From assembly GCA_002284855.1 (NCBI GenBank), contig CP015603.1, positions 1-64,000 on the forward strand: 64,000 nucleotides of DNA, written 5' to 3'. The stretch comes from Actinobacteria bacterium IMCC25003 (GTDB lineage Bacteria > Actinomycetota > Actinomycetes > Nanopelagicales > Nanopelagicaceae). Under the pieces are notes generated by a model. The model worked only from the letters and a program-made list of their open reading frames with translations. It was not told where the DNA came from and searched no databases. Positions 29,682 to 34,544 of this stretch are shown piece by piece. The translations under genes and the position numbers were made by a program. The first letter of the stretch is position 1; every line of letters begins with the position of its first letter.

Positions 29682-29802
29682 AAAACCGGGTTAAATCTCC
29701 ACGCACAATCTCCGCGTGGAATCGGCGTTTTGAGCGTGAGCGGGAGTATCGTTCCAGCCAGTACACATGAGCGCCAAGCACATGGGTCGAACGGAGGCAA
29801 AA

Positions 29803-29973
29803 ATGGCAGAGGTAGAGACATACAAGGGTGACGCTTACTGCGTTAAGTGCAAAGAGAAGCGTGATTTCGAGGGAACTGTAAAGATCTCAGACTCTGGTCG
29901 TCGCATGGCACAGGGCATCTGCCCAGTGTGTGGCACCAAGGTAAATCGCATTCTCGGCAAGAAGCCAGAATAA
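29803..29973 (+). CDS. DUF5679 small zinc-ribbon-like protein
   Basis: The 56-residue protein has YCVKCKEKRDFEG and ICPVCGTK, two CxxC pairs that probably bind zinc, matching DUF5679. The ATG at 29803 is chosen because GGAGG lies 6 nt upstream. A longer frame from 29767 adds 12 residues before this. Function is unknown. It is followed closely by a strong intrinsic terminator. Confidence 0.85.
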   Translation: MAEVETYKGDAYCVKCKEKRDFEGTVKISDSGRRMAQGICPVCGTKVNRILGKKPE

Positions 29974-30092: not shown

Positions 30093-31235
30093 ATGAGAAC
30101 GTTAAAGCGCGGTACATCACTCTTCTCCACCACTACACCCGGCGAATATTTCCTCGGAACATCCACGCGAGCAATTCGCATCTACACCACTGAGCAGAAG
30201 CTCATCGCTGAACAACTCGCACGCGGCCTCAGCGAGGATGCAGTTGCCCAGCTCACAGGAGTTTCGCCGATTGCGATCCACAATCTCATTACAGAACTTG
30301 CCCATCAATCTCTCTTAGATACTTCGCAGGGAAGTATCACGCTCAGCAATCGCTTCATCTCAAAGCTTGAAGGTCGTGCCGATAAAAATAGTAAGCCCGA
30401 GCGCGATGCCGCCTTTATCCAACTGCAAGCACGAATCGCACCCGAGCTCAACTACTGCACATGGTCACGCGGTGCCACCGATGGTGGAGTTGCGATCCTC
30501 AGCGAACGGCAGAACTACCTCATTGAAATCTCCGGAGGCAATCGCGTCGCCACTCTTCTCTATTCGCTCTTACTCACAAGTGGCTTTACGCAAGTGCGCT
30601 TCACTGCAACAGCGCGAGGTCGACATTCATCGATAGGAGATCTCGATATCGGCGTAGATGGAATCAACTCATCACACTTTGGATTCTCATTCACCAAGAA
30701 TCGCGAAGATCTGCGACGTGATTACACCCTCTTTCCACTTGATAAGAGCGCCAACTATCTTGATGAAGCTTCCACTCCAGATCTGGCAATTCATTGTGGT
30801 GATATCGATCCTGAAAAGTTGGCGTTATGGATGAGTTATAGCCAGCCATTTCTGCATATTCCTCATCCTCAAGGAGGTCGCGCAGAGATAGGGCCTTTGG
30901 TGATTCCTGGAAAAACTCCCTGTCTACGATGTGCAGAGCTTTCTGAGCGCGATCAAAGTGGCGTTATTTCTCATCGTTCACTTCGTAGCGATGAAATATA
31001 TGAATATCCGCAGATTGCCGCTCATGCCGTTGCAGCACTCGCGGCTGCGCAGGTTGTTGCCTATTGCGATGCGCTCACAACGATTCAGAGTAAATCACTT
31101 ACAAAAGAAGAGACGTGGCTCGAAGTAACGCATCAAGATCTCTTCGGAAAGATCACACTCATTGACTATCAATTACTAGCGCAACCACAGGTGGTGGCGA
31201 TTGCTCGCCATCCACTTTGCGGATGTGCTTTCTAA
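30093..31235 (+). CDS. ThiF/TOMM cyclodehydratase-like protein
   Basis: The 380-residue protein has an N-terminal helical region resembling a winged helix (about 35-90), then a Rossmann-like part. There follow GPLVIPGKTPCLRCAELSERD (near 270-290) and a C-terminal RHPLCGC. The CxxC and CxC pairs can form the structural zinc site of E1-like (ThiF) proteins, and the GPLV-PG-PCLRC pattern is that of the TOMM cyclodehydratase partner domain. No YcaO gene or precursor peptide is seen nearby. It converges on whiB7. No clear Shine-Dalgarno or TAnnnT box marks the start. Confidence 0.7.
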   Translation: MRTLKRGTSLFSTTTPGEYFLGTSTRAIRIYTTEQKLIAEQLARGLSEDAVAQLTGVSPIAIHNLITELAHQSLLDTSQGSITLSNRFISKLEGRADKNSKPERDAAFIQLQARIAPELNYCTWSRGATDGGVAILSERQNYLIEISGGNRVATLLYSLLLTSGFTQVRFTATARGRHSSIGDLDIGVDGINSSHFGFSFTKNREDLRRDYTLFPLDKSANYLDEASTPDLAIHCGDIDPEKLALWMSYSQPFLHIPHPQGGRAEIGPLVIPGKTPCLRCAELSERDQSGVISHRSLRSDEIYEYPQIAAHAVAALAAAQVVAYCDALTTIQSKSLTKEETWLEVTHQDLFGKITLIDYQLLAQPQVVAIARHPLCGCAF

Positions 31236-31243
31236 TTTCTTAC

Positions 31244-31606
31244 TTAGATATCTTCTTCAATCATGCGAGCAGCAGCAATCACCTGACGTGGTGGTCGACC
31301 AGCGCGACGCTTACGTTCGATGATCACACCATCTTCAATTAATTGGCCGCCCCATACGCCACATGGCTCTTGGCGAGATAACGCGCCATCGAGACACTTA
31401 TTACGCGCAGGACATGTGCCGCAGAGCGCCTTCGCCTCTGCAATTCCCTGGTCTGTCTCTGAGTAGAAGAGCTCAGGGTCTGCAGAATGGCAGGGCAAGG
31501 TGAAAGCCTTAGCGTTGTCATATGTGAATGTCACATCCTTCAAGCCAATCTTTTCGCCGCTATCTGCCCAGCCTGGTACCTGTAGTTCGCTGAAGAGAAC
31601 TGTCAT
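31244..31606 (-). CDS. whiB7: WhiB7-type transcriptional regulator
   Basis: Iron-sulfur WhiB protein of 120 residues with Cys39, Cys62, Cys65 and Cys71, and the GVWGG turn. It is followed by KRRAGRPPR, an AT-hook-like tail that marks the WhiB7/WblC subgroup and binds AT-rich DNA next to -35 boxes. WhiB7 activates intrinsic resistance to ribosome-targeting antibiotics. Its place beside uvrD2 and nudC matches the mycobacterial order. The ATG at 31606 has GAGGTGA 6 nt upstream. The 300-nt leader holds a uORF and an attenuator, described separately. Confidence 0.88.
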   Translation of the reverse strand: MTVLFSELQVPGWADSGEKIGLKDVTFTYDNAKAFTLPCHSADPELFYSETDQGIAEAKALCGTCPARNKCLDGALSRQEPCGVWGGQLIEDGVIIERKRRAGRPPRQVIAAARMIEEDI

Positions 31607-31682: not shown

Positions 31683-31724
31683 AAATAAAAAAGGACCTAC
31701 AAATCCTTTGTGGATTTGAGGCCC
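31683..31724 (-). terminator. whiB7 attenuator (intrinsic terminator in the leader)
   Basis: On the minus strand GGGCCT-CAAATCC pairs with GGATTTG-T-AGGTCC around an ACAAA loop, then comes TTTTTTATTT. It lies between the uORF and whiB7, so it would stop transcription before whiB7 by default. The GGCCTCA of its 5' arm (31717-31723) is also a perfect 7-nt complement to TGAGGCC at the end of the uORF (31764-31770), giving a mutually exclusive antiterminator. Confidence 0.8.
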
Positions 31725-31742
31725 TTGTGGGTTCTTTTCGAT

Positions 31743-31889
31743 TTATTCGACTAGAGCTCCTGTGGCCTCATTCTCCGCATAAAAGTTGGCGTAAAACCAG
31801 CGCTTTGTAGCGGTCTTTGAGGTTGTATGAGCAGCAGAAGGAACAGACGCACGAGCGCCTGCTGTTGTTGAAGCGAATACTGAATTCAT
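31743..31889 (-). CDS. Upstream ORF of whiB7 (attenuation leader peptide)
   Basis: A 48-codon frame starts at the ATG at 31889 with AAGGAG 5-6 nt upstream, the best ribosome binding site in this leader. It ends in TAA 18 nt before the attenuator hairpin. The peptide is rich in Ala, Ser and Thr in its first half and aromatic (WFYANFY) near the end. Known whiB7/wblC genes of actinobacteria use a uORF plus terminator to sense slowed translation, and this frame fits that role by position. The peptide itself need not be functional. Confidence 0.75.
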   Translation of the reverse strand: MNSVFASTTAGARASVPSAAHTTSKTATKRWFYANFYAENEATGALVE

Positions 31890-31918
31890 TTCAACTCCTT
31901 CTTCTAGTAGATGGAGTA

Positions 31919-31959
31919 AGGGTACGGGAGGCCTAATACTTCTGGCAACCCAATTAAAT
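31919..31959 (-). promoter_or_regulatory. whiB7 promoter with AT-rich WhiB7-type element
   Basis: On the minus strand TTGCCA (31948-31943) and TACCCT (31924-31919) form -35 and -10 boxes 18 bp apart, giving a transcription start about 20-25 nt before the uORF. Directly upstream, ATTTAATT (31959-31952) is separated from the -35 by GGG. WhiB7 is known to bind an AT-rich block 3 bp upstream of the -35, including at its own promoter, so this predicts autoregulation. Confidence 0.65.
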
Positions 31960-31963
31960 CCCT

Positions 31964-33613
31964 CTAAGAACCGGCGAGTAACCCAGATTCACGCAGGAAT
32001 GGGCTGGGGCTCTTGCGATACGAAATATGTAAATCGGCCTTGGCACGCGTAATTCCCACGTAGAAGAGGCGTCGCTCTTCATCAATCGATGCATCCGATA
32101 CGGGTAGCTGACCCTCAGAAGCGCCAATCAAAAAGACTCGCTCCCACTCAAGGCCCTTGGCTGCATGCAGAGTTGCCAAGGTAACGACAGGCATAGTCGG
32201 TGGATTGTTCTGCTGCACACGATCTTCAACTTCGCGCAAATATCCGCGCAACGTCTTGGGCGTAAAGTTATCGTCGCTATCAAGTTCGCGCGCTAAATGC
32301 AGAAGCGCTGCAATGCCATCGATTGCTTCACCTGTTAAATATGGTTGAGCTAATGTGCGAAGTTCATCAATCCATCCTTGGCCTTCGGTGGGAATAACAG
32401 ATGCTTTACGTACTTCGCTTAAGAAATCACGAACTTCTTTGCGATCGAAGAATCGCTCGGTGCTACGAACTTGATATGGCAAATTTACTTTGAGCATTGC
32501 GCGTTCGACGCTCTTCAGCTGTGAATTGGTACGAGCCAAGATTGCGACTTCGTGTGGTGGAGTTCCAGAGTTCAGGAGATCTGTAATTTCTGAGAGCACG
32601 CCAGTTACTTCAGCAGCCTCATCAGAGTAGCCAACGACGCTAGGCGCGCTGCCATGGTCGTTCTGGGCGACGAGCTCTTGTCCCATCGATCCGTGGCGCA
32701 AGAGCGCATTAGCGGCAAAGGTGATTTCAGGTGTAGAGCGATAACCGGTGCTGAGTCGAATTACTTCGGCATCAGGAAAACGTTGTGTAAAGGTATTGAG
32801 AAATACAGGAGTAGCGCCAGCGAATGAATAAATAGTCTGGGCAGGATCTCCGACGACGCAGATATCGTTTCGTTTTCCGAGCCAGGCATTGATGAGTCGC
32901 TGTTGGACGGGAGAAACGTCCTGATACTCATCAATGGTGAAGTATCTGTATTGGTCTTGCACGCGTTCGCGGACTTCGCGCTCTTCTTCGAGCATTGCTG
33001 CACAGAGCAGCAGAACGTCTTCAAAATCAATTGCTAACTCTTGCTTCTTTACGGATTCATAGGCGGTATAGATCTGCACCATCTGCTCAGGAAGTACGCG
33101 TGGTTTCTGCATCCGCTTAGAGATTTCATCGACGTAATCGCTCGGTGCAACTTGTGAAACCTTCGCCCATTCGATTTCGGATGCGATATCGCGCATGAGT
33201 TCGCGATTTGTTGCCCGGATTGCATCGCTTAGCCCTGCGCGATTAATTGCTTCGGTGAGAAAACCTGTCTTTGTTGTCATTAAATCTGGAGTACGACCGC
33301 CAAATACTGAGGGCCAGAAGTAGAGCAATTGCTTCAGCGCAGCCGAGTGAATTGTGCGCGCTGCAACGGTGGGGACTCCGAGTGAACGTAAACGTGCGCG
33401 CATCTCGCCTGCCGCTTTTGCGGTAAAGGTAAGCGCCAAGACTTTCTGGGGATCCATAGTGCCGATTGCCGCCGCATAAGCGATGCGATGTGTAATTGCA
33501 CGAGTCTTTCCGGTGCCTGCGCCAGCGATAACGCAGACAGGTCCACGTGATGCCAGTGCTACTGCGCGTTGATCGGGATCGAGCGCAGCGAGGATTTCGT
33601 CTTCTATCGCCAT
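31964..33613 (-). CDS. uvrD2: UvrD2-like DNA helicase without HRDC domain
   Basis: Superfamily 1A helicase of 549 residues with Walker A AGAGTGKTRA, motif II IDEYQD, motif III GDPAQTIYSF, and C-terminal motifs TLHAAKGLEW and VGITRAK. The position between whiB7 and nudC marks it as UvrD2. Mycobacterial UvrD2 is about 700 residues with an HRDC domain and a tetracysteine module after the motor. Here the protein ends about 20 residues after the last helicase motif, so both are missing. The ATG at 33613 follows the nudC stop by 1 nt. Confidence 0.87.
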   Translation of the reverse strand: MAIEDEILAALDPDQRAVALASRGPVCVIAGAGTGKTRAITHRIAYAAAIGTMDPQKVLALTFTAKAAGEMRARLRSLGVPTVAARTIHSAALKQLLYFWPSVFGGRTPDLMTTKTGFLTEAINRAGLSDAIRATNRELMRDIASEIEWAKVSQVAPSDYVDEISKRMQKPRVLPEQMVQIYTAYESVKKQELAIDFEDVLLLCAAMLEEEREVRERVQDQYRYFTIDEYQDVSPVQQRLINAWLGKRNDICVVGDPAQTIYSFAGATPVFLNTFTQRFPDAEVIRLSTGYRSTPEITFAANALLRHGSMGQELVAQNDHGSAPSVVGYSDEAAEVTGVLSEITDLLNSGTPPHEVAILARTNSQLKSVERAMLKVNLPYQVRSTERFFDRKEVRDFLSEVRKASVIPTEGQGWIDELRTLAQPYLTGEAIDGIAALLHLARELDSDDNFTPKTLRGYLREVEDRVQQNNPPTMPVVTLATLHAAKGLEWERVFLIGASEGQLPVSDASIDEERRLFYVGITRAKADLHISYRKSPSPFLRESGLLAGS

Positions 33614-33614
33614 G

Positions 33615-34544
33615 TCAGCGCCAAGTCTCGCCGCCTTGCGCGCTTTCGCCGAGCCAACCTTCAATCATCTTTCGTGCAACAGAGATTGACGGTGGGAGAA
33701 GAAGTGAACCATCGGCAGCTGCAGCTTTGAGTTCGGCGCGACTAAACCATTTCACTTCAGTGATCTCTTCGCCATCGCCCTTTGCAACGCCAGGATTATC
33801 GGTAACAGCTTCGAATGCAATCATGATGCTGGCAGGAAATGGCCACGGTTGTGAACCGAGATATTTGATTTCGCTGACCGTGATTCCAGATTCTTCAAAG
33901 ACTTCGCGCGAAACACATTGTTCAAATGTTTCACCTGGTTCGAGGAAGCCGGCAAATGTGGAGAAGCGACCTTCAGGCCACACAGGTTGATGTCCTAGCA
34001 AAATTCGATCGTCGCGATCTTTAATGAGAACGATGACTGCAGAATCTGTACGTGGGTGATGTTGGCTCTGATCTGCATCGCAGAAGCGTGCAGCTCCCCC
34101 AAGATCCACACGTGTTGGACCACCACATCGAGGACAACGCGGATGTGCACGATGCCAGTTGCTAATAGCCGTTGCATGGAGTGATAGTTCAAATTCGAGA
34201 GGTGAAAGTTGTGCGCCTATTTCTCGTAGCGTTGTAAATCCAACGCTCTTCTCTTCATCAGAGACTTCCTCTACCCACTGGGTATCCCATGCAAAGTAGG
34301 GAGAACGGTCATTGAGATCAAGGCCTAAAAAGTAGCGAGCACCTTCAGTGAATTTTCCCGATGCAATAAGTTGGGAAACCTGAGGCGCGTGAGAAAAGGC
34401 GAGCTTTTCATCAACCGATGCGATGCGACCATCTGCGATATGAAGAATCTTTGCCTTCTGCCACAAGGTATCGAGAGTGCCTTGATTGGTACGCAATTCT
34501 CCAGCGCGATCTATATGGGAAGGGTGCTGATGAATCGCGCTCAT
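33615..34544 (-). CDS. nudC: NAD(+) / NADH diphosphatase NudC
   Basis: Nudix hydrolase of 309 residues that splits NAD(H) and can remove NAD caps from RNA. It has a zinc-ribbon-like CPRCGG and FCDAD pair (about 135-155), the Nudix box GFLEPGETFEQCVSREVFEESGI, and the NudC-specific SQPWPFPAS segment just after it. TAACCT lies 6 nt before the ATG. It is directly upstream of uvrD2, and the two are likely co-transcribed. Confidence 0.94.
   Translation of the reverse strand: MSAIHQHPSHIDRAGELRTNQGTLDTLWQKAKILHIADGRIASVDEKLAFSHAPQVSQLIASGKFTEGARYFLGLDLNDRSPYFAWDTQWVEEVSDEEKSVGFTTLREIGAQLSPLEFELSLHATAISNWHRAHPRCPRCGGPTRVDLGGAARFCDADQSQHHPRTDSAVIVLIKDRDDRILLGHQPVWPEGRFSTFAGFLEPGETFEQCVSREVFEESGITVSEIKYLGSQPWPFPASIMIAFEAVTDNPGVAKGDGEEITEVKWFSRAELKAAAADGSLLLPPSISVARKMIEGWLGESAQGGETWR

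Follow-up and report, generated by a model that had tools for sequence, protein, structure and literature searches.

The question raised by this locus is whether the position of a ribosome on a short reading frame decides if whiB7 is transcribed in a planktonic freshwater actinomycete, Actinobacteria bacterium IMCC25003. Attenuation of whiB7/wblC by a uORF is established in mycobacteria and Streptomyces (PMC11550727, PMC13236596, PMC13393426, PMC12421871), where it is induced by antibiotics and by amino acid starvation (PMC11550727, PMC13236596, PMC12421871). Early evidence for attenuation in the whiB7 leader was given by Dinan 2014 (PMC4128351), and the attenuator of Lee, Lee and Roe 2022 (doi 10.1111/mmi.14834) is known here as it is related in PMC11550727, PMC13393426 and PMC13236596. 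The precedent that an earlier note on this DNA had invoked is therefore real (PMC11550727, PMC4128351, PMC13236596). Among PMC papers under CC0, CC BY or CC BY-SA licences, we found no description of the leader in Planktophila or Nanopelagicales. As set out below, the leader is very probably a ribosome-controlled transcription attenuator of whiB7, and is conserved almost without gaps throughout the order: a known mechanism in a new host lineage.

The whiB7 locus

The window, the whole 64,000-nt stretch of DNA that was analysed, starts at the first nucleotide of a genome assembled as one contig of 1.35 Mb. The genes concerned lie on the minus strand in the order nudC-like NUDIX gene, uvrD2-like helicase, uORF and whiB7, and M. 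tuberculosis whiB7 is presumably flanked by the same neighbours (nudC and uvrD2).

33615–34544, minus strand: nudC-like NUDIX gene, upstream of the uvrD2-like helicase (Pfam)
31964–33664, minus strand: uvrD2-like helicase, upstream of the leader (Pfam)
31244–31606, minus strand: whiB7, with a Wbl domain, a GVWGG turn and an AT-hook-like GRPP (Pfam Whib, 9.5e-16)

The downstream gene has the four cysteines, the GVWGG turn and the AT-hook of a WhiB7/WblC orthologue. The best solved relative of its product is M. tuberculosis WhiB7 (7kif, 2.5e-22), with WhiB1 far behind (5.8e-9), and C38, C61, C64, C70 and the GRP are invariant in the WhiB7 alignment. Among its close relatives, the protein of Candidatus Planktophila versatilis is 90% identical and that of P. 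lacus 84%, which marks the host as Planktophila-like within the Nanopelagicales; NCBIfam gave no match for WhiB7. Across the family, whiB7 was found in 244 of 296 genomes, and in 103 of the 108 of good quality. On the plus strand, an ORF of 380 amino acids without a Pfam match (30093–31235) converges on whiB7, and a small, Cys-containing protein of 68 amino acids (29767–29973) has a DUF5679 domain.

Promoter, uORF and terminator

Between uvrD2 and whiB7, the leader begins with a predicted promoter, followed by the uORF and an intrinsic terminator.

31919–31958, minus strand: promoter region, with an AT-rich WhiB7 box (TTTAATT) 3 nt upstream of the −35 and an 18-nt spacer
31948–31943, minus strand: −35 sequence TTGCCA
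31924–31919, minus strand: −10 sequence TACCCT
31895–31900, minus strand: Shine-Dalgarno AAGGAG of the uORF, 5 nt before its ATG
31743–31889, minus strand: uORF of 48 codons, MNSVFASTTAGARASVPSAAHTTSKTATKRWFYANFYAENEATGALVE, a conserved frame (ATG at 31889, TAA ending at 31743)
31683–31726, minus strand: intrinsic terminator, with its stem-loop at 31726–31691 and its U tract at 31692–31683

WblC targets carry a binding box 3 nt upstream of the −35 (PMC7157823), and by its motifs the window promoter is a predicted WhiB7-type autoregulated promoter from which transcription would start near 31912. The same pattern of box, TTGC, spacer and TAYYCT stands upstream of the uORF in 83 of the 89 leaders tested. 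In a search for a wider regulon, the pattern box-TTGC-TANNCT matched the whiB7 promoter and one other site, its TAATT version matched 2 sites (3 in the control), and a scan allowing two mismatches gave 156 matches (74 in the control); no regulon could be drawn from these searches. A second GGCCTC, at about 31930, resembles region 1 of a trp-type leader and was rejected as such: it falls within the promoter spacer, outside the expected transcript. In leaders of relatives, L088, L093, L017 and L036 among them, the −10 is closely followed by a short inverted repeat at about the position where transcription should begin, for example TTTCACCAAGTTGGTGAA and CTTCATCCAAAATATGGATG; it recurs with changing sequence and may form a stem-loop at the 5′ end. 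In the window, ACTCC and GGAGT could pair over the Shine-Dalgarno of the uORF.

Both elements that the earlier note had placed here, a 48-codon uORF with a strong Shine-Dalgarno and a terminator shortly after it, were confirmed. The terminator folds at −20.9 kcal/mol (RNAfold; z = −5.9), a stability that none of 200 shuffles reached, and its 5′ arm begins 16–18 nt past the uORF stop. In 45 aligned leaders its positions are 92.7% paired and 9 of its 14 pairs show double-sided change, a result matched by 0 of 500 shuffles. About 75 nt separate the hairpins from the whiB7 start (31606), and the conserved element is a terminator with a U tract, both of which argue against a leader fold that regulates translation by hiding the whiB7 ribosome-binding site; we regard such control as extremely unlikely, common as uORF-dependent translation attenuation is in antibiotic-resistance leaders.

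The arrangement recurs throughout the order. Our comparison set comprised 127 usable whiB7 upstream regions across the family (order Nanopelagicales), and a script recovered both uORF and terminator in 121, with a gap of 14–24 nt (median 17) between the uORF stop and the terminator in those 121 leaders. Of the remaining 6, four lie at contig ends and two (L041 and L079), which the script had scored as lacking a terminator, each have one that is visible on reading the sequence. One genome, G043, holds two whole copies of the whiB7 leader (L078 and L079) on different contigs; they are 96% identical over 1.25 kb and take in the end of uvrD2, so that either the region was duplicated recently or the assembly mixes two strains.

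A predicted antiterminator around the uORF stop

The 5′ arm of the terminator has a second potential partner, inside the uORF, whose codons are numbered here backwards from the stop.

31764–31770, minus strand: core of strand X, TGAGGCC, with pairing that reaches upstream to about 31779
31717–31723, minus strand: strand Y, GGCCTCA, shared by the terminator and the antiterminator
31738–31750, minus strand: apical hairpin UCGA/UCGA, with the uORF stop UAA (31745–31743) in its loop
31709–31779, minus strand: whole antiterminator hairpin (fold −25.2 kcal/mol)

TGAGGCC (31770–31764) is perfectly complementary to GGCCTCA (31723–31717), as the earlier note had pointed out, and the pairing appears in the fold once the 3′ arm of the terminator is withheld. 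These 7 bp are above chance but are not the whole structure: the second of the two folds that the note had proposed computing, at −25.2 kcal/mol, is one long irregular hairpin that starts near codon −12, reaches into the terminator loop and encloses the stop within some 22 pairs. In the predicted folds, the 5′ arm of the terminator and its loop can thus be taken up by strand X (about codons −12 to −7), which excludes the terminator.

Several observations point to this pairing as a selected feature of the RNA. First, we exchanged codons near the uORF stop for synonymous ones, so that the peptide stayed the same. In the window, the observed duplex energy was reached in 0.7% of trials and the energy of the full antiterminator in 0.5% (p = 0.005). 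Among the relatives, whose sequence relatedness makes these recoding and leader counts overstate their independence, the X:Y duplex alone was better than 95% of recodings (p < 0.05) in 60 of 94 distinct leaders, and the whole hairpin was favoured (p < 0.05) in 94 of 110, with a median of −30.8 kcal/mol against a null mean of −20.4 kcal/mol across those 110.

Second, we swapped X and Y between genera, using one leader from each of 14 genera, a comparison that is the least affected by relatedness. Own partners pair at −18.2 kcal/mol and swapped partners at −14.5 kcal/mol, and none of 20,000 permutations equalled the true pairing.

Third, the apical loop holds the uORF stop codon in 107 of 110 distinct leaders. 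At least 4 pairs enclose it in all 106 distinct spacers, 78 of which beat shuffled spacers (p < 0.05); the apical stop hairpin of the window, at −4.6 kcal/mol, is on the weak side.

The earlier note had proposed to look for compensatory changes in both stems. The terminator has them; for the antiterminator, a column count in a fixed register gave 59.3% pairing against 58.5% in shuffles (108/500), not above them, probably because the X codons and the register shift between genera. Three leaders from two outlying genera (L239, L245 and L247; g5 and g7) have little X:Y pairing and still have the terminator. Their uORFs are short and end in ..IPPTE or ..TPPTPEL, nearer to the ..PP. ends of other Actinomycetes. 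Pairing of CCUCA (codons 23–24) with UGAGG, seen in the naked leader, was not taken as a designed 1:2 hairpin. Rfam gave no family match, only two at chance level (E-values 0.69 and 0.93).

Judged by its substitutions, the uORF evolves as coding sequence: its frame is kept with in-frame indels, and dN/dS has a median of 0.48 and lies below 1 in all 447 pairs. Purifying selection, together with a promoter, Shine-Dalgarno and terminator of its own, would also be expected of a plain small protein gene, with whiB7 transcribed from another promoter or by constant read-through. The pattern of conservation makes this very unlikely. The N-terminal part of the uORF varies in length and sequence between genera, whereas the RNA pairing and the position of the stop are kept, and in Planktophila two codons of strand X hardly vary even as nucleotides (GAG in 33 of 40, GCC in 37 of 40), a constancy that a role of the protein leaves unexplained. 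The peptide has no NCBIfam match and no significant Pfam match. Scanning the region for promoters yielded no sigma-70-like site, but the same scan also misses the leader's own promoter.

The attenuator also extends beyond the order. Most of 25 whiB7 loci from other families of Actinomycetes have a terminator with a GGCC core, a uORF stop 15–26 nt upstream of it and a long hairpin enclosing that stop; Streptomyces is probably among the lineages that share the design. By this anatomy, the attenuator is common to Actinomycetes and not peculiar to a streamlined lineage, and the Planktophila leader therefore belongs to the published whiB7/wblC attenuator family. The circumstance that the earlier note had named as refuting its reading, a lack of conservation of the uORF or of the pairing in relatives, is not what we found: members of the order share the uORF, the terminator and the antiterminator pairing.

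Ribosome position and the modelled choice of fold

To relate the two folds to translation, we used a masking model in which a ribosome hides the RNA from the 5′ end to 16 nt downstream of the first base of its P-site, and whatever is free is folded before the 3′ arm of the terminator has been made. As long as the P-site has not passed codon −14, X:Y forms ahead of the 3′ arm in 25 of 25 representative leaders; at codon −13 it forms in 17, and from codon −12 onwards in at most 1. The model thereby gives a precise map of the ribosome positions that would switch whiB7 on. At equilibrium in the full-length RNA, the terminator usually beats the antiterminator, and in the window it wins at most stall positions, giving way only when the P-site lies at about codons −20 to −16. 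Most of the decision must accordingly be a matter of kinetics during transcription.

It had been proposed that a ribosome finishing the uORF covers TGAGGCC. This is so while the ribosome passes about codons −13 to −7. At the stop, a ribosome of the usual footprint would instead sit inside the hairpin and block the pairing from there, because TGAGGCC lies 19–25 nt upstream of the stop.

We envisage the following sequence. RNA polymerase would start from the WhiB7-activated promoter and transcribe the short uORF. In unstressed cells, ribosomes would reach the end of the uORF and either cover X or sit inside the hairpin, the terminator would form, and whiB7 would stay untranscribed. An earlier stall, caused by ribosome-targeting antibiotics or by a shortage of charged tRNA, would leave X free when Y emerges; the antiterminator could then form first and let the polymerase into whiB7, whose product would go on to boost its own promoter.

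A Phe/Tyr/Ala-rich segment in the uORF

The part of the uORF where a stall is predicted to turn on whiB7 has an unusual composition.

31776–31805, minus strand: candidate control segment KRWFYANFYA, codons −20 to −11 from the stop, rich in Phe, Tyr and Ala

In 25 representative leaders from across the order, Phe and Tyr account for 30% of the residues at codons −20 to −11, whereas their share is 5% upstream and 3% downstream. None of the 250 residues at these positions is Leu, Ile, Met, Asp, Glu or Gln. The 23 uORFs from outside Nanopelagicales show no such enrichment (5% Phe/Tyr at the segment), so that the stretch is apparently order-specific and new. Within Planktophila, codons −17 to −11 (FYA[A/N]FYA) have a pN/pS of 0.11 while synonymous sites are free to vary. 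The exact FYAxFYA motif is confined to Planktophila and its near relatives; other genera keep the aromatic richness alone. Across the order, the uORF as a whole draws on a narrow amino acid alphabet: codons −45 to −21 are rich in Ala, Thr, Ser and His and nearly lack Glu, Gln and Asp (0.3, 0.5 and 1.3%).

As the segment coincides with the stall positions that free X in the model, a natural reading is that its aromatic and Ala codons are control codons within the same attenuation mechanism. The enrichment, the six absent amino acids and the low pN/pS with free synonymous change all accord with this, as does the masking model, in which stalls at the Phe/Tyr/Ala codons of the window give the strongest antitermination. 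We nevertheless put the chance well below even that these are control codons and that, in consequence, poorly charged tRNA for Phe, Tyr or Ala rather than antibiotics is what chiefly triggers the switch in nature. The Phe/Tyr positions shift between genera, and an effect of the nascent peptide would leave the same signature. Nor is an auxotrophy for Phe or Tyr evident: the genome keeps prephenate dehydratase and a match to prephenate dehydrogenase, so that auxotrophy does not explain the codons and was set aside as their cause.

The nascent-peptide effect would be a pause in which FYAxFYA slows the ribosome at a point where its front covers X, keeping the switch off until the terminator has been made. 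A P-site at codon −11 does cover X in the masking model, and the constraint at codons −17 to −11 acts on the peptide, but the restriction of the exact motif to Planktophila and near relatives counts against it, and we think such a pause unlikely. Whether by supply or by pause, it is rather doubtful that the Nanopelagicales attenuator has been retuned from antibiotics to sensing aromatic amino acids or alanine or a nascent-peptide pause. If it has, the stall-sensitive part of the uORF has come to be built largely from Phe, Tyr, Ala, Lys and Thr, and whiB7 in nutrient-poor lakes would be chiefly a sensor of the supply of aromatic amino acids or alanine, or of a peptide pause.

Comparison with known attenuators

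Read as a ribosome-controlled attenuator, the leader would add lake plankton to the soil and pathogenic actinomycetes in which the whiB7 attenuator is known, and would mean that an elaborate ribosome-sensing switch, one of few, survived genome reduction in some of the most abundant freshwater bacteria. It also raises the question whether, in oligotrophic water, the switch naturally responds to antibiotics or to the supply of amino acids.

The closest parallel is the whiB7/wblC attenuator itself. The two have in common a WhiB7 orthologue, a WhiB7-box promoter, a uORF led by a Shine-Dalgarno, a Rho-independent terminator between uORF and whiB7, and a mutually exclusive antiterminator; in leaders of other Actinomycetes, too, a long hairpin is found at the uORF stop and the terminator has a GGCC core. 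They differ in the end of the uORF, which is typically ..TWSxIG in the order (..EATGALVE in the window) and not ..WSPPV, and in the terminator, which here is lower in GC and weaker. The Phe/Tyr/Ala-rich segment at codons −20 to −11 is absent from the other Actinomycetes sampled, and the host here has a planktonic genome of 1.35 Mb.

Amino acid attenuators that act through a leader peptide, such as the trp type and that of M. tuberculosis ilvB1 (PMC13236596), likewise let the position of a ribosome on a short ORF choose between antiterminator and terminator, and clustered control codons may be a further common point. Unlike in these systems, the gene controlled here is a stress regulator and not a biosynthetic operon, the uORF is longer, and the candidate control residues do not match the product of the gene.

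Finally, the uORF attenuators of ABC-F genes (vmlR, vgaA, lmrC and are5sc; PMC12421871) combine, as does this leader, a uORF, a premature terminator and an antiterminator released by stalling. They control a different gene family, and the uORFs of are5sc and tiaA are very short and stall the ribosome at the start codon.
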